From Candidatus Saccharibacteria bacterium CG2_30_41_52 (GTDB taxonomy: Bacteria > Patescibacteriota > Saccharimonadia > Saccharimonadales > Saccharimonadaceae), in assembly GCA_001873625.1 (NCBI GenBank), contig MNZN01000001.1:62001-126000 (forward strand): 64,000 nt of DNA, written 5' to 3'. Shown piece by piece: positions 1,672 to 18,578 of the stretch; position 1 is the first letter of the stretch, and every line of letters starts with the position of its first letter. Under the pieces are notes generated by a model that was not told where the DNA came from, ran no database searches, and was given only the letters and a program-made list of their open reading frames with translations. The position numbers and the translations under genes are program-made.

Positions 1672-3702
1672 ATGAACCTTGTGTCGTCACTTAAAAAAAT
1701 AAAAGGTGTTGGTTTAAAGACAGCCGAACAGTTTACATTGGCTGGGATACGAACAGTCGGTGATTTAATTGATTTTTTGCCACGTACATACGAGGATTTT
1801 TCACACATCACCACAATTGCCAACATTGCGCCTGGCAAAGCTACCATCTTGGCTCGTTGTGAAAAGATTGCAACTCGTCCGGTTCGGCGCGGTTTGCGTA
1901 TTACAACAGCTACCTTAGTTGATAGCACAGGTAAATTGCAAGCCGTTTGGTTTAATCAACCGTACCGCGAGACTCAACTAAAATCAGGTGAGGAGTTCTA
2001 TTTTTCGGGCGAATTTGAGTTTAATTACAACCGTTATCAATTAACCAACCCAAGTGCTGAATTAGTCAAAGACATGCCGGTTCAAACCGACAGAATTTTA
2101 CCGGTATACCGTTCGATAAAAGGCTTAAAAACGCCACTCGTGCGTAAGATTCTGTCCGAATTGCGACCATTAATTACGATGTTGTCCGAAACTTTACCGT
2201 CAAACATCATTAAAGATGAAAATCTAATGTCACGCAGCCAGGCAGTACTGACGATGCATTTTCCCGAAGATATGGCGGACATTGAAAAAGCGCGTGATCG
2301 TTTGGCATTCGAAGAGTTATTTCAATTATTACTAGCCAGTCAATTAAACCGTCAAGAAAACGCCAAATTGACAGGTTGGCATATCCCCTTTGAACAACCA
2401 GTGGTGGCAAATTTTGTAAAACAATTACCATTTGAATTAACTGGCGCACAGCGCCGCGCTGCTTGGGAAATCATTCAGGATTTAGAACGTAAAACGCCTA
2501 TGAACAGGTTATTACAAGGTGATGTTGGTTCGGGAAAAACTGTTGTTGCAGGCTTAGTTGCTTGCCAAGTGGCACATTTTGGTTTTCAGACGGCAATCAT
2601 GGCTCCGACCGAGATATTGGCCTCACAGCACGCCGAGACGCTAAGTAAACTATTGCAACCACTAGGAGTAACTGTTGGCTTGTTAACTGGCAGTGTCAAA
2701 GGAACCGCACGTAAGACTCTATATGAACAGATAGCTACCGGTTCGGTTCAAGTCGTAGTTGGAACACATGCGCTAATCCAAGATTCGGTGAATTTTTATA
2801 AACTAGGTTTTGTCGTGATTGACGAACAACATCGGTTTGGTGTTAATCAACGACAATTATTATTAGCTAAATCTGAACATATGCCTCACATGCTGGCAAT
2901 GACCGCGACACCGATTCCGCGAAGTCTGGCGCTGACTGTTTATGGTGAATTAGATATTAGTATTTTGAATGAACTGCCCAAAGGCCGTAAACCAATCCAG
3001 ACCAAAATATGGTCACCAAATAGCCGGGCTCAGTTATACGAAAAAATTGATGTCGAATTAGTGGCTGGCCGTCAAGCATATGTAATTTGTAGTTTAATCG
3101 AAGAAAATCTCGAAAACGAGATAAAAAGTGTTCAGGCAGAATATAAAAAACTGCAAAACTCGGTTTTTAAACATCGTCGTATTGGTTTGCTACATGGCAA
3201 GCTAAAATCAGACGAAAAAGATGTAGTCATGGGGCAATTCAGTCGTGGTGAACTGGATATTTTGGTCAGTACTACTGTCGTTGAAGTTGGTGTTGACGTA
3301 CCTAACGCGACAGTTGTTATGATTGAAAACGCAGATAGATTCGGTTTGTCACAACTTCACCAGTTGCGTGGTCGCGTTGGTCGCAGTGTTCATCAAAGCT
3401 ATTGTTATCTGGTTACCAGCACTAGCGCTAAACCGACTGAACGTCTGCGTCATCTGGAAAAGAGTAACGATGGTTTTTATTTGGCTGAAGTAGACTTAAA
3501 ACTTCGTGGTCCTGGCGAAATATATGGTCGGGCTCAACACGGTGCCTTGAATTTGCAAATTGCAACACTAGCCGATACTAAATTAATTGCTCGGGCTCAA
3601 AAACAAGCTAAATCTTTCGTGGCAAGTGGTGTTGACATGTTACAATATAAACAATTAGCTACGCAAGTTCAGTATTACCAGCGTCTAACAACCTTAAATT
3701 AA
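1672..3702 (+). CDS. recG: ATP-dependent DNA helicase RecG
   Basis: GDVGSGKTVVAGL, DEQHRFGVNQR, MTATPIPRSLALT, GRVGRSVHQSYCYLV. Confidence 0.97.
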   Translation: MNLVSSLKKIKGVGLKTAEQFTLAGIRTVGDLIDFLPRTYEDFSHITTIANIAPGKATILARCEKIATRPVRRGLRITTATLVDSTGKLQAVWFNQPYRETQLKSGEEFYFSGEFEFNYNRYQLTNPSAELVKDMPVQTDRILPVYRSIKGLKTPLVRKILSELRPLITMLSETLPSNIIKDENLMSRSQAVLTMHFPEDMADIEKARDRLAFEELFQLLLASQLNRQENAKLTGWHIPFEQPVVANFVKQLPFELTGAQRRAAWEIIQDLERKTPMNRLLQGDVGSGKTVVAGLVACQVAHFGFQTAIMAPTEILASQHAETLSKLLQPLGVTVGLLTGSVKGTARKTLYEQIATGSVQVVVGTHALIQDSVNFYKLGFVVIDEQHRFGVNQRQLLLAKSEHMPHMLAMTATPIPRSLALTVYGELDISILNELPKGRKPIQTKIWSPNSRAQLYEKIDVELVAGRQAYVICSLIEENLENEIKSVQAEYKKLQNSVFKHRRIGLLHGKLKSDEKDVVMGQFSRGELDILVSTTVVEVGVDVPNATVVMIENADRFGLSQLHQLRGRVGRSVHQSYCYLVTSTSAKPTERLRHLEKSNDGFYLAEVDLKLRGPGEIYGRAQHGALNLQIATLADTKLIARAQKQAKSFVASGVDMLQYKQLATQVQYYQRLTTLN

Positions 3703-3754
3703 CTCTATTTTTACTAAATCCATTTCTAATAGCTATTCGCTAAGGGCAAACATT

Positions 3755-4570
3755 ATGTACTCAGGAACAACTCTCCGTAAAGGTTCAGGCAGAATTGTGG
3801 GTGTTCACCAAAGAATTGATCGTATTGCCAGACTGCGTTTATATAAATATATATCCAAGACTTTGGAGTTTCCGTCTATAAGTGACATTCTTAAATTTGA
3901 AGGTAAGAATGGTCCGGATGGGCTAAAACTTAAAAGTCCATCCCGCGATGAACCAAGGCATTTTATTGATCCGACCGATTCAGACGATCATATGTTGCTT
4001 GATATGATCCATAGTCATATTAAAAATTTAGCTGAAGCTTTGAAGGCCGATAATCATGTTCGAGCTTCATTTGAAGCAGCTTGGTTGGCACATGCTGTTG
4101 TTGACGGTTTAACGCCACCGCATCATTATCCGTTGACTGAAAAGACTAGAAAATCATATCTTAAAAAAGGTTATGATTTATTGAAAAGTAAAAAAAATAA
4201 GAAAGAAATTGAAACCGAACTAAGTCGTCGGCAAGCAATATTAAAAAAGTGGGAATTCTGGGGTACTAGAAGTGCGACTTCGCACGTTATGTTTGAATGG
4301 GGTGTTGCTTCGGTTACTACTACCTCTCGTTTCACAACAAGTGGTCCAGCCGATAGTGATATTGAACGACTCAAACAAATTGGTTATGATGCGTTATTTA
4401 TGGAATCAGTACATAAAGTATATGATTTGCAGATGTTTGATGAATTTGAGGAAAATGGCTGGACACATAATCTAGCACTTAAAACTAGAAGAATCCTTGT
4501 CCCAGAAATCATTAAAGCCGTTACACTTGCTTGGTATCAGGCTGCAATAGTATCAAAGGATCTAAAGTAA
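3755..4570 (+). CDS. Conserved protein with His-rich zinc-dependent phospholipase/nuclease-like motifs
   Basis: Motifs RHFIDP, MIHSHIKN, AWLAHAVVDGLTPPHHYP, THNLALKT; weak family-level resemblance only. Confidence 0.5.
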   Translation: MYSGTTLRKGSGRIVGVHQRIDRIARLRLYKYISKTLEFPSISDILKFEGKNGPDGLKLKSPSRDEPRHFIDPTDSDDHMLLDMIHSHIKNLAEALKADNHVRASFEAAWLAHAVVDGLTPPHHYPLTEKTRKSYLKKGYDLLKSKKNKKEIETELSRRQAILKKWEFWGTRSATSHVMFEWGVASVTTTSRFTTSGPADSDIERLKQIGYDALFMESVHKVYDLQMFDEFEENGWTHNLALKTRRILVPEIIKAVTLAWYQAAIVSKDLK

Positions 4571-10986: not shown

Positions 10987-11032
10987 TTATTATATTGTAA
11001 AATTAGTGATAGTATTAATTACGGTGGTTGTT

Positions 11033-11065
11033 CATTAAAAAGTCAGATTATTACAGTGCATATCG
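11033..11065 (+). repeat. Unit 1, 5' arm of inverted repeat
   Basis: CATTAAAAAGTCAGATTATTACAGTGCATATCG; complementary to 11408-11437. Confidence 0.85.
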
Positions 11066-11125
11066 CGCTGCTTAATCATTAATTTTTGTATTTTGTAGGC
11101 CCTTGGCCTCGATGCAAGCACAATT

Positions 11126-11350
11126 ATGATGGGACTAAATTACTACCAGTATTCTGGTGGAATGCTAGCACTAAGCCTGCTAGTAGGCATTTGGACGATG
11201 TTTTGGATGGCTGTTGCCTTATGGCGCGCCGCCAACAAGAAGCAAGGATTGTGGTTCTTCTTCTTGCTAATCTTCTCGATGTGGGGCATTCTGCCTCTCA
11301 TCTACATCTTCTTGGTTGAGAAGATGGAGGCCAAAGAATGGTTTAGCTAA
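11126..11350 (+). CDS. Small membrane protein, DUF5652-like (unit 1)
   Basis: WRAANKKQGLWFFFLLIFSMWGILPLIYIFLVEK resembles the short two-TM DUF5652-type pattern; from memory, not searched. Confidence 0.6.
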   Translation: MMGLNYYQYSGGMLALSLLVGIWTMFWMAVALWRAANKKQGLWFFFLLIFSMWGILPLIYIFLVEKMEAKEWFS

Positions 11351-11395
11351 GTAGCATGGCTAGTGGAGTCCGCTCGAAAGAGCGGACTCTAAAGT

Positions 11396-11905
11396 TCAAT
11401 TTAGACCCGATATGCACATTGTAATAATTTGATTTTTGGATTCTAAATACTGCTTTATTGCACTTGCAATGGTTTTTAGTGTAGTGCGATATTTTTCGTC
11501 GTCAACTTCCAATAATGTCATCCTAAAACCTGGCAAGTCCAAATTAAATCCCGATAGTGGTACGACGTAAACACCGGTCGCGGCTAACAGATAATATACA
11601 AATCTTTTATCAAGTGCTATATCTTTAACTAATGGTTCAATATACTCTTTGACGGCTTGGTTCTCTATCTGTAAAGTTTGGTGTGATTTTAATTCGTTTG
11701 GTTTAAATACGACCGTTGCATACAATGCGCCATTGGGTTACCGCGCAGGTAATACCAGTAATAGGCGATAGAGTGCTGTAAAACAACTCGGCTCGGCGGT
11801 TATATCGTTTATTATTCCAGCCTAAATAGGCGTGATATTTGCTGTCAGATTCAATAGCCGACAATGCCATTTGTGGCAAAGTAGTGGCACAAATATCCGT
11901 CATCT
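11396..11905 (-). pseudogene. Remnant of a class I/II aminotransferase (frameshifted, truncated)
   Basis: Two overlapping minus frames: TTLPQMALSAIESDSKYHAYLGWNNKRYNRRAELFYSTL then YATVVFKPNE..LAATGVYVVPLSGFNLDLPGFRMTLLEVDDEKY. Confidence 0.75.
11408..11437 (+). repeat. Unit 1, 3' arm of inverted repeat
   Basis: CGATATGCACATTGTAATAATTTGATTTTT. Confidence 0.85.
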
Positions 11906-12024
11906 ATTAACAATAACTTAAACCCCTGGTTTAATGCGTAAAAGATTGCATAGTATTGACAATTATTCATGTTTATGGTAAACTACGGTCAATGGTTGCT
12001 TTGGGAGACAAAACAACTATCGCT

Positions 12025-12060
12025 CATTACAAAATCAAATCATTAAAGTGCGCGTCTGAG
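12025..12060 (+). repeat. Unit 2, 5' arm
   Basis: AAAATCAAATCATTAAAGTGCGCGTCTGAG; ATTAAA variant matched by its own 3' arm. Confidence 0.87.
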
Positions 12061-12155
12061 AAGATGTGTGCTTTACAAAACGGGTGAATTAATTAATTAA
12101 TTCAACTCTACTTTTGCACTAGCATCGCCTAGGGCAAAAAAGAGAAAACAACATT

Positions 12156-12401
12156 ATGTTTTCAAGAATCTTGAATTCATCTATGTATGTTAGCGTTATC
12201 GTGTCTATGGTAGGACTTTTGTTCTACAAACAGACAACCATCCTTGCAGAGGCAATTGTAATCATCGTAGCATTCTTGCTACCGCTTGCAATTATCTATG
12301 CAAACACCAAGTTGGAGCAGATCAAAAAGATCTGTTACGTGCTCGGTCTTATCGAGGCTGGATTGGTATTCGCTCTCATTGTTGGTAATCGCCTTTGGTA
12401 A
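12156..12401 (+). CDS. Small membrane protein (unit 2)
   Basis: 81-aa ORF, strongly hydrophobic, positioned inside the unit. Confidence 0.6.
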   Translation: MFSRILNSSMYVSVIVSMVGLLFYKQTTILAEAIVIIVAFLLPLAIIYANTKLEQIKKICYVLGLIEAGLVFALIVGNRLW

Positions 12402-12485
12402 TACCATTGGCTTGCCGCACCCTCCAGGGAACCTATTTTATGCATCGCATATTTATAGGTTCCCTGTGAGTCAATTTTTTTGACT

Positions 12486-12519
12486 CGACTCGCACATTTT
12501 AATGATTTGATTTTTTGAG
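12486..12519 (+). repeat. Unit 2, 3' arm
   Basis: GACTCGCACATTTTAATGATTTGATTTTTTGAG. Confidence 0.87.
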
Positions 12520-12574
12520 TAGATACTAAATTTATAAATTATGATTAGGATTTTAAAGAATCTAGAACTTTGTT

Positions 12575-13246
12575 ATGGCCAAAAATTGTAATACGCACAG
12601 ATATAACGAAACGTTCGCCAATAAAAGCGAATCAATCAGAAGCGAAAAAGCTTCTGTATTAGGTGTCGCAATGGCAAATATCGCCCTAACGTCTGCGATC
12701 CTGGGTTCAATGTATTTCGTGTCTGAATATCAGAAGAATCATAACATTGCTATGGCAAGTACAGGTGAAGTAGTAGCTGAAAGTACGATCGCTCCAGACG
12801 CGTTGGCGGTTCGTGCTGTAAAGCGCGTAAAAGCTTTAACTGAAACTCGTACAATAACTATTAAAAATGAAGCTCCAATGGACGTTATTCTGCCCGAAGG
12901 TGTCACGCCAGAGGCGGAAACTATCAAGATTGAAGTTGAAGTACCAGCTGAAACATCTGAGTTACCACCAATTAAAACTAGTGAAGCAGAAGCCAAAGCT
13001 TATATCTTCCGTCGCGAGAGTAGTAATAGACCAGAAGCCGAGAATCAATTCGGCTGTAAAGGTCTAGGACAGGATTGTAATGGCCGTCTGGTTGTTGAAT
13101 GTCCAAATTGGAAAACAGATCGCAAATGCCAAGAAGTATTCTTTGGTAAATATGTTGCAGGACGTTATGGTAGCTGGCAAGCAGCTAAAACATTTTGGGA
13201 TGCGCGTGTACCGATAAACAGCCGTGACGTCGGTAACTGGTACTAA
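12575..13246 (+). CDS. TM-anchored protein with lysozyme/transglycosylase-like C-terminal domain (aggregation-promoting-factor-like)
   Basis: AKAYIFRRESSNRPEAENQFGCKGLGQ..YVAGRYGSWQAAKTFWDAR..WY. Confidence 0.75.
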   Translation: MAKNCNTHRYNETFANKSESIRSEKASVLGVAMANIALTSAILGSMYFVSEYQKNHNIAMASTGEVVAESTIAPDALAVRAVKRVKALTETRTITIKNEAPMDVILPEGVTPEAETIKIEVEVPAETSELPPIKTSEAEAKAYIFRRESSNRPEAENQFGCKGLGQDCNGRLVVECPNWKTDRKCQEVFFGKYVAGRYGSWQAAKTFWDARVPINSRDVGNWY

Positions 13247-13333
13247 CACTGGTACGTATTGACAAAACATAGCGTTTATGCTACTATGTAGAGTGTTAGT
13301 TTTTCCGGTATTAATCCGCGAGAAACTCAAGGT

Positions 13334-13366
13334 CATTAATAAGTCAGATCATTACAGTGCAAGTAA
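13334..13366 (+). repeat. Unit 3, 5' arm
   Basis: CATTAATAAGTCAGATCATTACAGTGC. Confidence 0.85.
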
Positions 13367-13442
13367 TTGCGCTTAGGGTGAATTAAATTAATTATATATT
13401 TTTGTTGACTGGTTTAACCAGGCTGTCAAAAGTACATTAAGT

Positions 13443-13694
13443 ATGAAGAACAAGACAGACGAGGTAAAGTTACCAGGCTTTGTGAAAACAATAGCTACGG
13501 TGTTAGTGACAATTGCCGGAATAGCTTTCATCGTGTGGTTTTCAATAATCACTACGTCAATAGTTATTTATCTAGCAGCGGTCGCTTTTATCATCTTTTT
13601 AATGTTTTTAGCTGTTGATTTAATATCGTGGATTCCAGGTAAAGCTTTGGCTATAATTTTTATTTTAGCCGTTGCGTATCTGCTTTTCCGATAA
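13443..13694 (+). CDS. Small membrane protein (unit 3)
   Basis: 83-aa hydrophobic ORF inside the unit. Confidence 0.6.
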   Translation: MKNKTDEVKLPGFVKTIATVLVTIAGIAFIVWFSIITTSIVIYLAAVAFIIFLMFLAVDLISWIPGKALAIIFILAVAYLLFR

Positions 13695-13762
13695 ACACCC
13701 GACAATTTCAAGAAACCTGCTCTCGCTTCGGCGGTCGAGTAGGTTTCTTGAAAAATCGCTTT

Positions 13763-13795
13763 GATGCATACGCACATTGTAATGATCTGGTTTAT
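13763..13795 (+). repeat. Unit 3, 3' arm
   Basis: GCATACGCACATTGTAATGATCTGGTTTAT. Confidence 0.85.
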
Positions 13796-13812
13796 AGTAA
13801 TGGCGTAAGAAC

Positions 13813-13847
13813 CTTAACAAATCATATCATTTCGACGCATGTTTGAG
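13813..13847 (+). repeat. Unit 4, 5' arm
   Basis: CTTAACAAATCATATCATTTCGACGCATGTTTG; ATTTCGA variant matched by its own 3' arm. Confidence 0.88.
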
Positions 13848-13901
13848 TGGCCGCTTAACCGGTGTCGTTCATTATTCGTTTAAAATTAATACAAAAGAAG
13901 T

Positions 13902-14192
13902 ATGGAAAAAGCATCAAAAGTTTGCTACGCATACAGCCGAATTGAAATTGTAGTCGCCGAACGAGGTTTAGACCAAAAAGTCCAAAAAGCGCTCAAGGGA
14001 TTAGCAGTAATTCCATGTTACGTGGACTATGACGAAAAGATAGAGGCTCAAGCTTATAGTCGTTTTGTAAAAAAATACGATGAAGTTAAAGCTAGAGCTT
14101 ATGCGCATTTTTGCGCTATGGTCTTGGGATACACTCTTTACGACGGCAACAACCTTCGATGGGCGATGCAAGAAGCTGAAGCAAGAATTTAG
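13902..14192 (+). CDS. Small unrecognised protein (unit 4)
   Basis: 96-aa ORF within the inverted repeat, A-rich run upstream of ATG. Confidence 0.6.
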   Translation: MEKASKVCYAYSRIEIVVAERGLDQKVQKALKGLAVIPCYVDYDEKIEAQAYSRFVKKYDEVKARAYAHFCAMVLGYTLYDGNNLRWAMQEAEARI

Positions 14193-14300
14193 GTTCAATT
14201 CTGGCAGAAGTTATTAACTTCACACTCCGCAGATCTACTCTATTTAGCGCGTAAGTGCTATCGGCCTAGAGTAGATCTTCGTGAACTGTTTTACATAGTT

Positions 14301-14333
14301 CAACATGCGTCTCGAAATGATGTGATTTGTGGT
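14301..14333 (+). repeat. Unit 4, 3' arm
   Basis: CAACATGCGTCTCGAAATGATGTGATTTGTGGT. Confidence 0.88.
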
Positions 14334-14343
14334 AATTGATAGA

Positions 14344-14373
14344 AAATAACTGGCTAATGTCAGTTATTTTTTA
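14344..14373 (+). terminator. Rho-independent-like terminator after unit 4
   Basis: AAAATAACTGgctaatgtCAGTTATTTTTT. Confidence 0.75.
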
Positions 14374-14384
14374 AACTGTTATCA

Positions 14385-14417
14385 TTGTTGACGCATTTAG
14401 TTGTTTATGATACTATA
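14385..14417 (+). promoter_or_regulatory. Sigma70-like promoter for unit 5
   Basis: TTGACG and downstream TACTATATT (-10-like). Confidence 0.6.
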
Positions 14418-14460
14418 TTCTAATCAGCTGTTTACGGCTCTGTGCTGTAGCTACAAGCGA

Positions 14461-14495
14461 TCATTAACAAATCGGATTATTACAGTGCATGTCTG
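14461..14495 (+). repeat. Unit 5, 5' arm
   Basis: TCATTAACAAATCGGATTATTACAGTGCATGTCTG. Confidence 0.87.
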
Positions 14496-14661
14496 AAGAG
14501 ATTATGTACTTTTAATTTATTAATTTCTTTTTCGGACTGAATTTATTTCAGGTCGTTAAAAGAGCTAAAAACAAATGACTAACAAAAAATCTCAAGTAGT
14601 TTAATTCAACTAGCTATTTTCTACATTGGCAATTTGCTAATTTAGAGGATAAGAAAATAAG

Positions 14662-14934
14662 ATGAAAACGAAAAAGAAAAGACAAGACGGACTTAGCTCA
14701 GATGATGTCGCGGTACTTTACAAGATAATTAGGGTAATGCCTCATTCGGATATCGATAAGCCATCAAGCCGTTTTGTGCGTGCCAGAGAAGGATATTTGA
14801 AGACTATGTTAAGTGGCTGTTCGAACCGAAGATGCGCGTTTCAATATGCGTGCTTTGTGGCTTCGAATGGAGATATGCATGATTGCTATGCGGCGATTAA
14901 TGCTGTCTGGTTTATGCCCGAGTTTTGGGCGTAA
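14662..14934 (+). CDS. Small unrecognised protein (unit 5, first ORF)
   Basis: 90-aa ORF with GAGGATAAG upstream. Confidence 0.6.
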   Translation: MKTKKKRQDGLSSDDVAVLYKIIRVMPHSDIDKPSSRFVRAREGYLKTMLSGCSNRRCAFQYACFVASNGDMHDCYAAINAVWFMPEFWA

Positions 14935-15008
14935 ACAGGTACTAGTCTATTATTCTAGAACGAAATTTTTGTCAAGTTCATAGTTAGCAATTAATAAATA
15001 CCAAAAAT

Positions 15009-15326
15009 ATGAAAAAACAATCAATCAACAAGTTTAAGGGTAACAGAGCATTGAAACAGAACTTCAGGAATCAAACATCTCAGGAGTTGGCTGCCAGATT
15101 TAGACACGCAATGTCGATAATTGGTTATATCAACAAGAAAGAGAGTCGAAAGCGTAATTCACGGATTATTCAATCAGTGATGAAAAGGTTCGACACTATC
15201 TATTCAGAGACAAGCCTGTTTAGAGATTCGTTCCGTAAGGTAGTGTTAGAAATTGCTGAAGAAAATGGCAAGAACGAAAGATGTGCTGCGTATGCGGCTA
15301 ACACTGCTCTGGAACTAAAGTTCTAG
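15009..15326 (+). CDS. Small basic helical protein (unit 5, second ORF), paralogous to 15832-16152
   Basis: RFDTIYSETSLFRDSFRKVVLEIAEENG..NTALEL aligns with RFDSIREEGCGYKKSFYLTVKWTAEDNG..NCALAL. Confidence 0.65.
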   Translation: MKKQSINKFKGNRALKQNFRNQTSQELAARFRHAMSIIGYINKKESRKRNSRIIQSVMKRFDTIYSETSLFRDSFRKVVLEIAEENGKNERCAAYAANTALELKF

Positions 15327-15432
15327 ACAACTGTTGAATTGATGCAATTTTTCCGGATTGAACTGTCGTAGGGCACCCTAAACTGGTGCCTTACGACAAG
15401 TAAAGACCTGTGATTCGCTAAACAAGCGAATC

Positions 15433-15464
15433 GACGTGCACATTGTAATAATCTGATTTGTTAG
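15433..15464 (+). repeat. Unit 5, 3' arm
   Basis: GACGTGCACATTGTAATAATCTGATTTGTTAG. Confidence 0.87.
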
Positions 15465-15531
15465 TTCACAAATAGGCCTTAGTGGTCTATTTTTATTTAA
15501 TAAATTACAATGGTCAACGTTGATTTATCGA

Positions 15532-15566
15532 ATTGACAATACAACGCATTAGTGATATATTATTCA
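15532..15566 (+). promoter_or_regulatory. Sigma70-like promoter for unit 6
   Basis: TTGACAATACAACGCATTAGTGATATATTATTC (-35 TTGACA, -10 TATATT). Confidence 0.7.
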
Positions 15567-15608
15567 AATTAGTTGTCTGTGGCGTGGTAGCCTAAGGCGG
15601 CGGAGGAT

Positions 15609-15644
15609 CATTAATAAATCAGATCATTACAGTGCATGTCTGAA
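15609..15644 (+). repeat. Unit 6, 5' arm
   Basis: CATTAATAAATCAGATCATTACAGTGCATGTCTGAA. Confidence 0.87.
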
Positions 15645-15831
15645 CGACATGTCACTATGTTAATTTAATAAAATTTTCTTTTAACGTACTGAGCTAAATA
15701 TTCAGGACGATAAACGAACAAAAACAAATGATTCAAAACGTTAGGTTGGTCATAATTATTAATAGTTAGATTAATTGTTTATAACAGTGGTTTTAGTTAT
15801 TAAGCTATTTAATTAAATTAACAAAAAAGCT

Positions 15832-16152
15832 ATGAAAAACCAATTAAGCAAAAAGCTAATTTTAAAAAGAAGAGCTCTTGGTGATAAGATAAGGCGCGCA
15901 AAGCGTAAGATTTTAGTATGTCGATTACGAGGTGCTATGTATATGCTTTGCCTTGTCGCTAAAAACGAAACAAAAAGTACAAAAGTCGCAATGAAAAAAA
16001 GCCTATTAAATAGGTTTGATTCCATTAGGGAAGAAGGTTGTGGTTATAAAAAATCATTTTATTTGACGGTCAAATGGACTGCCGAAGATAATGGTATTTA
16101 TGATGAGGATTTAGTAAGAACGCTGGTTAATTGTGCGCTTGCTCTGCGATAA
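15832..16152 (+). CDS. Small basic helical protein (unit 6)
   Basis: 106-aa ORF similar to the 15009 product. Confidence 0.65.
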   Translation: MKNQLSKKLILKRRALGDKIRRAKRKILVCRLRGAMYMLCLVAKNETKSTKVAMKKSLLNRFDSIREEGCGYKKSFYLTVKWTAEDNGIYDEDLVRTLVNCALALR

Positions 16153-16214
16153 ACTTATAGTTTTATTCCAGGGGCCTGCGAAAGCAGGCTCCTGTGAGTC
16201 ATTTTTGATGGCTC

Positions 16215-16245
16215 GACGTGCACATTTGTAATGATCTGGTCTATT
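16215..16245 (+). repeat. Unit 6, 3' arm
   Basis: GACGTGCACATTTGTAATGATCTGGTCTATT. Confidence 0.86.
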
Positions 16246-16259
16246 TTGATTTGAGCGTT

Positions 16260-16293
16260 CATTAACAAGTCAAATCATTATGGTGCGTGTTTG
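16260..16293 (+). repeat. Unit 7, 5' arm
   Basis: CATTAACAAGTCAAATCATTATGGTGCGTGTTTG; ATTATG variant matched by CATAAT in its own 3' arm. Confidence 0.87.
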
Positions 16294-16369
16294 AAAAGAC
16301 GCAACCTGTTTTAATTAATATTTTTTCTTTATATAAGGCGTAATGCCGGATAAAAAAGAAAACAAAATT

Positions 16370-16849
16370 ATGAGAACAAAAGAACAAGATGATGACACAG
16401 TGAGTTATTTGCGAATAAGGTATGGTGTACGTATATTCGGGGTTGAAATGAATAAGGATATTCATTCAAACTCTGCAGCGGGCATATTTCTTTGGACTCG
16501 TGACAAGCGTAGACAGTTCAATAGGGAGTTTGCTGAATATTCGTATAATCACAATTCCGACGAGACCGTAGAATATATGGTTAATTGGGTAGCTGATTGT
16601 TTGTGCGTTAATGACAAAATAAGGGACACAGCGGTTGAATTAGCATTAGAGTATGACCCAACCTATCGGTTGAAGTTTGCTCAGCTGGTCAATAAACTTG
16701 ATGAAAAAGCCACAGTGACAAAAGTGTTTATAGTCGCCATTATAATTTTTGCAACTATAATGTGGGGCCTAGTCGGTTTCATTGCATCCTTTGTTTTTTT
16801 ATCACTTGTTATGGTTACGCATGTAATTATGACAGACAAAGTTAGATAA
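16370..16849 (+). CDS. Small protein with C-terminal two-TM segment (unit 7)
   Basis: Start at 16370 preferred over 16343, since the 16343 ATG lies in the leader hairpin GGCGTAATGCC. Confidence 0.6.
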   Translation: MRTKEQDDDTVSYLRIRYGVRIFGVEMNKDIHSNSAAGIFLWTRDKRRQFNREFAEYSYNHNSDETVEYMVNWVADCLCVNDKIRDTAVELALEYDPTYRLKFAQLVNKLDEKATVTKVFIVAIIIFATIMWGLVGFIASFVFLSLVMVTHVIMTDKVR

Positions 16850-16941
16850 TGGTTTATAAATAGTTTCTAGAAAATCTACTAGCGCAGTCGCGCTGGTAGA
16901 TTTTCTATGAATTGCAGGTCGCTATATAGCGAAAGCGATTC

Positions 16942-16973
16942 GACGCGCACTATTCATAATGATTTGATTTGTT
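16942..16973 (+). repeat. Unit 7, 3' arm
   Basis: GACGCGCACTATTCATAATGATTTGATTTGTT. Confidence 0.87.
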
Positions 16974-16989
16974 GATTGACGGATTGTAT

Positions 16990-17022
16990 CTTAACAAGTC
17001 GGATCATTACAGTGCATGTCTG
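16990..17022 (+). repeat. Unit 8, 5' arm
   Basis: CTTAACAAGTCGGATCATTACAGTGCATGTCTG. Confidence 0.87.
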
Positions 17023-17104
17023 AAAAGACTGTACCGTTAATTTATAAATTTCTTCTTCATTTTCCGTGCAATTAAGTACGGAGTGTTAGAAAAGTAAAAC
17101 AAAT

Positions 17105-17419
17105 ATGAAAAAGCCAAGTATCAAGGAAATCCTTAAAGCGGGCGTTTCGGCCATTAAAGCTGATCCAAGAGGTAAAGATACATTTGAAAGCCGTGTTGTA
17201 CGAGCCGAAAAAAATTATTCTGCTAAAAAGAATAAAGGTGCAACGGTAGTTTCCAAGTTAAGGGAAGCTATGTGGGCCGCAGCTAATCTTGATGAGTTTG
17301 ACAATAACATTCATGATTATTCTGACGCGATGTGTGTTGTGAATAAGCTGTTGATGAAGCGAGAATTGGTCGCCAAGTCGATTGGAATTAAAAAAAAGCG
17401 CAAACTGGCAAAAGTTTAG
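17105..17419 (+). CDS. Small basic protein (unit 8)
   Basis: 104-aa ORF; SKLREAMWAAANLDEFD resembles RFRHAMSIIGYINKKE and RLRGAMYMLCLVAKNE of other units. Confidence 0.6.
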   Translation: MKKPSIKEILKAGVSAIKADPRGKDTFESRVVRAEKNYSAKKNKGATVVSKLREAMWAAANLDEFDNNIHDYSDAMCVVNKLLMKRELVAKSIGIKKKRKLAKV

Positions 17420-17498
17420 AATATTTAAAAATTAAGGTACAAATTCTGCGGAGTCTATCAGCAATGGTAGACTCCATGTGAGTCATTTTTTTGACTCG

Positions 17499-17530
17499 AC
17501 GTGCACGTTGTAATGATCTGATTTGTGAGA
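17499..17530 (+). repeat. Unit 8, 3' arm
   Basis: GACGTGCACGTTGTAATGATCTGATTTGTGAG. Confidence 0.87.
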
Positions 17531-17570
17531 AGTATTGACAATACACCTAATTAGTGGTAATGTATAGTGT
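17531..17570 (+). promoter_or_regulatory. Sigma70-like promoter for unit 9
   Basis: TTGACAATACACCTAATTAGTGGTAATGTATAGT. Confidence 0.65.
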
Positions 17571-17600
17571 GTTGTTGTCGAGGTGGAAACAGATAACGAA

Positions 17601-17633
17601 CTTTAACAAATCATATTATTACAGTGCACGTCT
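17601..17633 (+). repeat. Unit 9, 5' arm
   Basis: CTTTAACAAATCATATTATTACAGTGCACGTCT. Confidence 0.85.
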
Positions 17634-17843
17634 TTTCGTACGTGACAAATAATTTCTAATTATCTTCTTATACAAGGCCTACGTCGTGTAAACAGAAATA
17701 TCAATACAATACAAAATGGTGAAAATTGAATGAACGGTAGCAAAGTACTATTTAGCGCTTATGCAAACATCGTCAAAACATCAATTTAAAATTGGTGAGA
17801 GTTAGTAATTTATTATTTTTCTTGAGCGTTTGAGTATCAAAAA

Positions 17844-18413
17844 ATGCTTGCGTATCAAGAAGCAAACAACCGTATGGAAAAAAAGAATTTCAACCAGGAA
17901 GTTGAAGAGATCAAAAAAGGTGTCGATGATTTAGCTCACAAAATGGAACGAAGTAAGTTTTTACTGGAAAGTGAAACTGAATTAGCAGTACGTTTTAGTG
18001 AAGCAAAAAGATTGTTGGGGGACAGACCTTACAATCATCAGATATCCACGATGATTGCCGAGTTCAAGGAATATCAGTCTGCTGGTTATGCCTATGATGA
18101 AGCATTGATTGCTACCGTATGGTCGTCAGTCAAATGGGATTCTACTGCAACCAAAGAAAAGGTTGGAAAAGCAATAAATAAATTGCTGGCATACAACCCA
18201 GATCGCAGAGTTGCTTACATTCGCTTCAAGAATAGCCATAGAATTTTGGTTATTGTGGCTTATGTATTGTGGTGTGCAATGATATTTGTAGGTACCCAGT
18301 TTTGGATTACCCAAGTCACTCACGACACCTTCACTCGATATTTCGTACCATCAATGGTAACCCTGTATTATGCCGCATTCTCTCATGGGTTTCTGCGTAA
18401 GAAACTTTACTAG
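17844..18413 (+). CDS. Helical protein with C-terminal TM segments (unit 9)
   Basis: 189-aa ORF; soluble helical part then ILVIVAYVLWCAMIFVGTQFWI. Confidence 0.65.
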   Translation: MLAYQEANNRMEKKNFNQEVEEIKKGVDDLAHKMERSKFLLESETELAVRFSEAKRLLGDRPYNHQISTMIAEFKEYQSAGYAYDEALIATVWSSVKWDSTATKEKVGKAINKLLAYNPDRRVAYIRFKNSHRILVIVAYVLWCAMIFVGTQFWITQVTHDTFTRYFVPSMVTLYYAAFSHGFLRKKLY

Positions 18414-18512
18414 AGATGGTTTTGATACCTGGTTTGCTGGTTACGATTGAATAGAGCCTACTCTCGCGAGAACGCCATAATGGCGTTCTCGCGGTTGAGC
18501 TGGACTAAAAAA

Positions 18513-18545
18513 GACGTGCACATTTGTAATAATTTGATTTGTAAG
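18513..18545 (+). repeat. Unit 9, 3' arm
   Basis: GACGTGCACATTTGTAATAATTTGATTTGTAAG. Confidence 0.86.
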
Positions 18546-18578
18546 AAAGCCTAGGACACTAATCCTGGGCTTTTTTAT
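18546..18578 (+). terminator. Rho-independent terminator ending the array
   Basis: AGCCTAGGACACTAATCCTGGGCTTTTTTATTT. Confidence 0.8.

Follow-up and report, generated by a model that had tools for sequence, protein, structure and literature searches.

Organization of the array

The window analysed here is a 64,000-nucleotide (nt) stretch of contig MNZN01000001.1 of Candidatus Saccharibacteria bacterium CG2_30_41_52, part of a host genome of 825 kilobases (kb) in 12 contigs. The closest relatives of this genome in the public collection are Saccharibacteria (TM7), the complete TM7i genome among them. Members of this group are very small and live on other bacteria. On the plus strand of the window, the interval from a SpoU-family methylase gene to hisS contains nine units in which small open reading frames (ORFs) are framed by a pair of complementary arms (Table 1). 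Each unit opens with a boxA-like element and the 5' arm. Approximately 60-200 nt further on come one or two ORFs, then a long hairpin, in most cases a smaller second one, and finally the 3' arm. The long hairpin separates the stop codon from the 3' arm in every window unit, and the small one adjoins the 3' arm in most. Units 4, 7 and 8 look co-transcribed with the preceding unit because they begin 10-50 nt past its 3' arm.

An initial annotation of this DNA had described nine consecutive units in one orientation, each with one or two small ORFs and a strong hairpin before the 3' arm. All nine arm pairs were found, displaced by a few bases and all on the plus strand, and their single orientation is confirmed. 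Each unit has one long ORF, with two in one unit, and the strong hairpin is seen in each. The nine units do lie in series, but they are interrupted by a decayed stretch (approximately 11440-12020) between units 1 and 2 and by an unframed gene (12575-13246) between units 2 and 3. The annotation overlooked the boxA-like element, the parallel with the leader-trailer helices of the host ribosomal RNA (rRNA), and an order-wide unit upstream of a surface-protein gene.

Pairing and covariation of the arms

The duplex energies of the nine window arm pairs range from -35.9 to -48.8 kcal/mol. In nearly all of the 76 candidate units taken from the window and from related genomes, the 5' arm has a cognate 3' arm 0.3-2.6 kb further downstream; outside arrays, the next-best pairings mostly fall between -17 and -28 kcal/mol. 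Cognate arms pair at 24.2 of 26 positions versus 22.7 for swapped arms (0 of 5000 permutations as good). In the window alone, 4 of 362,880 arm reassignments equal the cognate pairing. The complementary flanks form a helix of more than 17 base pairs (bp) around the transcript body, as in helices of the rRNA-precursor (pre-rRNA) type.

In 71 distinct aligned arm pairs, 94% of cells pair and two-sided changes occur at 12 of 17 base-pair positions (111 cells versus 29 +/- 8 in shuffles, 0/500). The shuffle control is blind to relatedness; in the safer control, in which the partner is slid by 1-3 columns, 1-12 two-sided cells remain. The arms of unit 4, for example, carry the compensatory changes TTTCGACG/CGTCTCGAAA. 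G-U (G-T) mismatches exceed A-C mismatches (58 versus 26, p = 0.0006, an optimistic value since many pairs are related). In most pairs there is a bulge on the 3' arm, usually of 2-4 nt (0-18). Compensatory change, the G-U excess, the bulge and recurrence all support the stem that the initial annotation had proposed to fold each messenger RNA (mRNA) end to end. That the stem acts as RNA, and that the arms are a conserved covarying RNA element, is well supported by these comparisons because G-U mismatches exceed A-C mismatches and the bulge lies on the 3' arm. An Rfam search of the arms, which the initial annotation had proposed, was extended to the units; at permissive E-values it returned only tRNAs and chance matches and no family. 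No rRNA was found in the units searched, which hold ORFs instead.

These data also bear on a DNA-level origin, in which the arms would be terminal inverted repeats of mobile or invertible cassettes. Such cassettes would account for inverted repeats around unrelated ORFs, for arrays that differ among genomes and for a spoU-hisS junction that is unit-free in one relative (L054). They do not account for the covariation, the G-U excess and the one-sided bulge, nor for the single orientation and the promoter-like, leader and terminator-like elements located outside the arms. No target-site duplications, which the initial annotation had named as a mark of transposon repeats, were found around the units, and the window units share no repeat longer than 6 nt outside the arms. 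No transposase or recombinase was found with Pfam, NCBIfam and PHROGs in the window-unit ORFs, nor a transposase with Pfam in the flanking genes. A DNA-level origin is now very improbable, and a transposon was rejected on the lack of duplications and transposase and on the single orientation. Integron attC sites were also considered and were dropped because the arms pair across each ORF and not within a boundary site; no integrase search was made.

The boxA-like element and the host rRNA leaders

Nearly all 5' arms open with G..C[AG]TTAACAA or a close variant, which overlaps the foot of the stem. When this element is compared with the boxA consensus GYTCTTTAANA (PMC5725501), the G, C and TTAACA positions agree, position -1 is mostly a purine (R), and positions -4 and -3 are variable. 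G(-5) and C(-2) are conserved in the unit logo (73-100% and 63-88%, respectively) though they lie mostly outside the stem, and both are fixed positions in the boxA consensus. As judged by sequence and position, the element overlaps or lies upstream of the 5' strand of the helix.

The rRNA leaders of the host have the same geometry. The 16S leader (GAACTTTGACAATTTAGTTGTGC...) pairs with its trailer, and the leader-trailer helix begins inside the boxA-like GAACTTTGACAATTT. The 23S leader contains AATTTTAACAATTTGG. The rRNA leaders of relatives contain GACCTTTAACAATTT and GATCTTTGACAATTT, and those of other families contain GA[AT]C[GT]TTAAAAATT-like sequences in the same place. The genes for NusB and RNase III (nusB and rnc) are present in the host genome, near each other. 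In the E. coli model, boxA-bound NusB holds the 5' strand near the RNA exit channel until the trailer emerges and pairs (PMC10250234), and boxA is known to act outside rRNA (rrn) operons (PMC5725501). As a separate observation, the 23S rRNA gene at G000 C4:42806-46167 (L180) is 3362 nt long versus a 2925-position model and seems to carry an insert; it lies approximately 4.9 kb from the 16S gene.

The units are probably protein-coding transcripts built as rRNA precursors, in which Nus factors would hold the 5' arm, the helix would close, and the mRNA would be protected or processed. Several points weigh against this interpretation. The identification of boxA is putative and is drawn solely from the sequence and where it lies. 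At position -1 most units have R, where gamma-proteobacterial boxA and the rRNA of the genus itself have T. TTAACAA is AT-rich, as is the host genome. The unit arms differ in sequence from the rRNA arms beyond boxA, so the unit frame is not a copy of the rRNA leader.

Distribution and the conserved unit

When 85,462 species genomes were searched for exact copies of the arm core, 38 stretches were obtained. All that bear an informative name are Saccharibacteria or Patescibacteria, except for one contig labelled Herbinix sp. (L114, JAQUYQ010000148.1). Two or three units are present on this contig, together with a spoU gene that shares 74% identity with the one in the window, and the contig is probably a mis-binned Saccharibacterial one. 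Within the order, the 5'-arm sequence model matches 73 of 393 genomes, which belong to the host's own family and to several others. The recurrence on which the initial annotation had made its proposal depend is thus found, with units present in dozens of Saccharibacteria. Distant members of the order pair too, over 1.4-3.4 kb; the enclosed length of roughly 400-1000 nt given in that annotation holds for the small units, and in the order's other families spans reach 3.4 kb. The host genome has at least 15 units, nine of them in the window; this and all other genome-wide tallies are lower bounds. One sequence, GGGGTACGTTAACAAGTTGGATCATTACAGTACAT, lies in a genome of another class of the phylum (L204, G732:C197) on a 1.3-kb contig fragment with no visible partner arm. 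It may reflect contamination or a wider distribution.

There are two kinds of unit. The first is order-wide, mostly single-copy and 1.3-3.4 kb long, and encodes two proteins, one small and accessory, the other membrane-anchored and ending in a proline-rich tail. The surface proteins of this conserved unit are related by BLAST in 25 loci, partly via low complexity. In nearly every one of 48 loci, a further surface-protein gene (WGPSRPTYTI...FNSITDNP...GDERNFV) follows directly downstream of this unit, and in the host genome its product has DUF11 and an LPXTG anchor. The second kind measures 0.4-1 kb and holds orphan ORFs that are almost never related to one another. Units occur throughout one genus, and their arrays lie upstream of hisS in the host genome and G007 and upstream of spoU in G002. 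In G009, the spoU-hisS gap is only 58 nt and has no unit inside. Judged from the genomes sampled and not from a tree, the small-unit arrays appear to be an expansion of the frame in one genus. At locus L006, an extra copy of a surface-type protein (2910-3818) lies just upstream of the promoter of the conserved unit.

In 36 of the 48 loci, the conserved unit has a second TTAACAA 30-100 nt past its 3' arm, compared with 1.9% of 70-nt windows drawn at random. The surrounding sequence, often TTTAACAATTYGG, is similar to that in the 23S leader. This second site bears on the main rival to an rRNA-type frame, a closed-loop mRNA without Nus factors. There the helix alone would block both 5'- and 3'-dependent decay or recruit another RNA-binding protein, and TTAACAA would be part of the site of that protein or a single-strand processing site. 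The helix is indeed the strongest and best-covarying feature, the hairpins preceding the 3' arm would protect as well, and the 5' strand is near-invariant across the order past its boxA part, which suggests a specific binder. However, a loop of this kind leaves unexplained the boxA match of the mostly unpaired G(-5) and C(-2), the host rRNA helices that start in the same element, and a second TTAACAA that stands after and outside the stem. We consider it unlikely.

The enclosed open reading frames

The window-unit ORFs encode 74-189 amino acids and are longer than dinucleotide shuffles give (0-12 of 300 shuffles reach their length). The ORF of unit 1 matches DUF5652 in Pfam (E = 1.8e-14). The other nine of the ten have no Pfam family at its cut-off, in keeping with the earlier remark that most belong to no recognised family. 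Scans of these ORFs with NCBIfam, PHROGs and PADLOC gave nothing relevant. The ORF of unit 6 is a paralogue of the second ORF of unit 5. Fold searches of the PDB gave nothing significant, either for a model of a paralogous small protein (predicted local distance difference test, pLDDT, 81; predicted template modelling score, pTM, 0.71) or for the conserved surface protein, of which the core is well predicted and the remainder disordered. A known anti-phage defence system was rejected, with only a chance-level PADLOC match (E = 0.006), as was a phage origin, with no exact match of the arm core in viral contigs and no match in PHROGs.

The coding content speaks against a large, structured non-coding RNA or ribozyme with only incidental ORFs. 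The conserved ends, the strong hairpins inside the units and the mostly single-copy member across the order would fit such an RNA. Against it, the ORFs exceed shuffles in every window unit, the conserved unit encodes related surface proteins in 25 loci, and Rfam gives no match; little probability is now left to it.

A regulatory switch is a further alternative, in which pairing of the ends would govern translation or decay and not maturation. In Staphylococcus aureus icaR, pairing of the 5' and 3' untranslated regions (UTRs) blocks translation and is cut by RNase III (PMC3868564), and translation of suhB is repressed by boxA-bound Nus factors (PMC5725501). In the units, approximately 60-200 nt separate the arms from the start codons. 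The stem would therefore leave the ribosome-binding sites uncovered, and one frame around unrelated ORFs suggests a general role in maturation or stability. A switch is improbable.

Control elements and other features of the window

The promoter scan total barely exceeds that of shuffles, and the promoter calls in Table 1 are based on position and mutual similarity. In many units there is a possible additional conserved element of the 5' UTR between the 5' arm and the start codon, made up of a U-rich stretch, a small hairpin and an A-rich stretch (for example, 12082-12155, 14505-14600 and 17030-17104). The minus strand between units 1 and 2 (11436-11903) holds a coding remnant interrupted by stops, the longest piece of which has no Pfam match. 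The plus-strand gene between units 2 and 3 encodes an orphan protein of 223 amino acids, has no framing arms and no Pfam match, and by eye shows a hydrophobic segment close to the N-terminus.

Table 1. Units and candidate control elements (window positions unless a contig is given).
Feature	Positions	Strand	boxA-like element	5' arm	ORF	Hairpins	3' arm	Remarks
Unit 1	11030-11438	+	11030-11041	11033-11066	11126-11350	~11367-11392 (GC)	11408-11438	DUF5652
Unit 2	12022-12514	+	12022-12033 (weak; GCTCATTACAAA)	12025-12058	12156-12401	~12425-12466; second ~12467-12484	12486-12514	
Unit 3	13331-13803	+	13331-13342	13334-13366	13443-13694	~13713-13749	~13757-13803	
Unit 4	13809-14334	+	13809-13820	13813-13842	13902-14192	~14219-14270	14301-14331	
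Unit 5	14459-15466	+	14459-14470 (perfect)	14461-14494	14662-14934; 15009-15326	~15364-15399	15432-15466	
Unit 6	15606-16249	+	15606-15617	15609-15642	15832-16152	~16166-16195	16214-16249	
Unit 7	16257-16982	+	16257-16268 (perfect)	16260-16293	16343-16849	~16868-16907	16941-16982	
Unit 8	16986-17530	+	16986-16997 (GTATCTTAACAA)	16990-17022	17105-17419	~17452-17475; second ~17478-17495	17497-17530	
Unit 9	17598-18550	+	17598-17609 (GAACTTTAACAA)	17601-17635	17844-18413	~18460-18496	18510-18550	
Promoter-like, upstream of unit 2	11956-11984	+						TTGACA-17-TAAACT; consensus match only
Promoter-like, upstream of units 3-4	13259-13287	+						TTGACA-17-TACTAT; consensus scan
Promoter-like, upstream of unit 5	14388-14416	+						TTGACG-17-TACTAT; consensus scan
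Promoter-like, upstream of units 6-8	15533-15561	+						TTGACA-17-TATATT (11/12); consensus scan
Promoter-like, upstream of unit 9	17535-17563	+						TTGACA...TAATGT; by sequence reading; part of a repeat
Terminator-like hairpin and T run, after unit 4	14343-14374	+						AAAATAACTGGCTAATGTCAGTTATTTTTTAA; by sequence reading
Terminator-like hairpin, after unit 5	15470-15492	+						scan
Terminator-like hairpin and T run, after unit 9	18546-18577	+						by sequence reading
Host-genome units outside the window	C7:9946; C4 near 149.9 and 150.8 kb; C10 near 175.9, 220.6 and 228.2 kb							

Proposed maturation of the units

If the units are built as rRNA precursors, promoters would be used such that transcription starts 30-50 nt upstream of the boxA-like G..CRTTAACAA at the foot of the 5' arm. 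NusB-NusE (S10) would bind this site and keep the 5' arm attached to RNA polymerase as the enzyme moves. The message, with its one or two ORFs followed by the strong hairpin, would loop out during tethering, and antitermination would aid transcription through the internal hairpins. The emerging 3' arm would pair with the tethered 5' arm to form a helix of approximately 25-30 bp around 0.4-3.4 kb of mRNA. A stem this strong should be a substrate for RNase III, and RNase III together with trimming would split back-to-back units and strip leader and trailer. The end products would be end-protected, long-lived mRNAs. The putative ancestral unit precedes the DUF11/LPXTG surface-protein gene with the second boxA-like site between them, an arrangement like that of 16S-boxA-23S in rrn operons.

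More tentatively, the units may represent a new class of mRNA, an order-wide assembly line of the rRNA type (Nus tethering, end-to-end helix and RNase III release) that would yield stable, end-sealed units. It would serve a surface-protein operon and, in one genus, would have expanded into a fast-evolving repertoire of orphan small proteins. If this is true, the rRNA maturation frame of boxA and leader-trailer helix is not exclusive to rRNA and is a portable frame for coding messages. The units would then be a natural system for testing the Nus-factor RNA-looping model apart from ribosome assembly, and they would mark a regulon in episymbiotic bacteria, in which genetic work is difficult. They would also direct attention to orphan proteins with the same control element as a cell-surface protein operon, and the RNA signature would make otherwise invisible small genes findable.

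Comparison with known systems

The closest likeness is to the leader-trailer helices of rrn pre-rRNA with boxA and boxC. In both, a boxA-like site lies at the foot of the 5' strand or overlaps it, the 5' strand hardly varies, a helix of 25-40 bp encloses 1.5-3 kb, another boxA-type site precedes the next gene, and RNase III is the candidate processor (PMC10250234). Unlike pre-rRNA, the units carry protein-coding mRNA, differ in arm sequence, often measure 0.4-1 kb in tandem arrays, and assemble no ribosome. The frame would work like a pre-rRNA frame, yet the units are outside that family because no rRNA is enclosed.

The boxA-regulated genes suhB, nusE, ribH-nusB and a ParE-like toxin also have a boxA-like site upstream of protein-coding genes (PMC5725501). 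However, these non-rRNA genes are not described with an enclosing long-range helix, and the suhB boxA represses translation and promotes Rho termination. In S. aureus icaR, the mRNA ends pair into an RNase III substrate (PMC3868564), but icaR is one gene with a 7-nt motif over the Shine-Dalgarno sequence, whereas the units have arms of approximately 30 nt, far from the start codon, around dozens of unrelated mRNAs. Integron cassette arrays likewise hold orphan ORFs in one orientation with inverted-repeat elements; there, attC is one compact site per cassette boundary, whereas the unit arms flank each ORF and covary across it. In the early mRNA of phage T7, RNase III splits a polycistronic RNA into stable single messages at double-stranded sites. 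The T7 sites are local hairpins between genes, whereas the unit helices span each gene.

The initial annotation knew of no named system with this layout; none was found in the open-access literature searched, where such mRNAs are described from neither Saccharibacteria nor Patescibacteria. The parts are known, namely boxA, leader-trailer helices and pairing of 5' and 3' UTRs of the icaR type. Their combination as a reusable, order-conserved frame around many unrelated messages appears nowhere in the literature searched.

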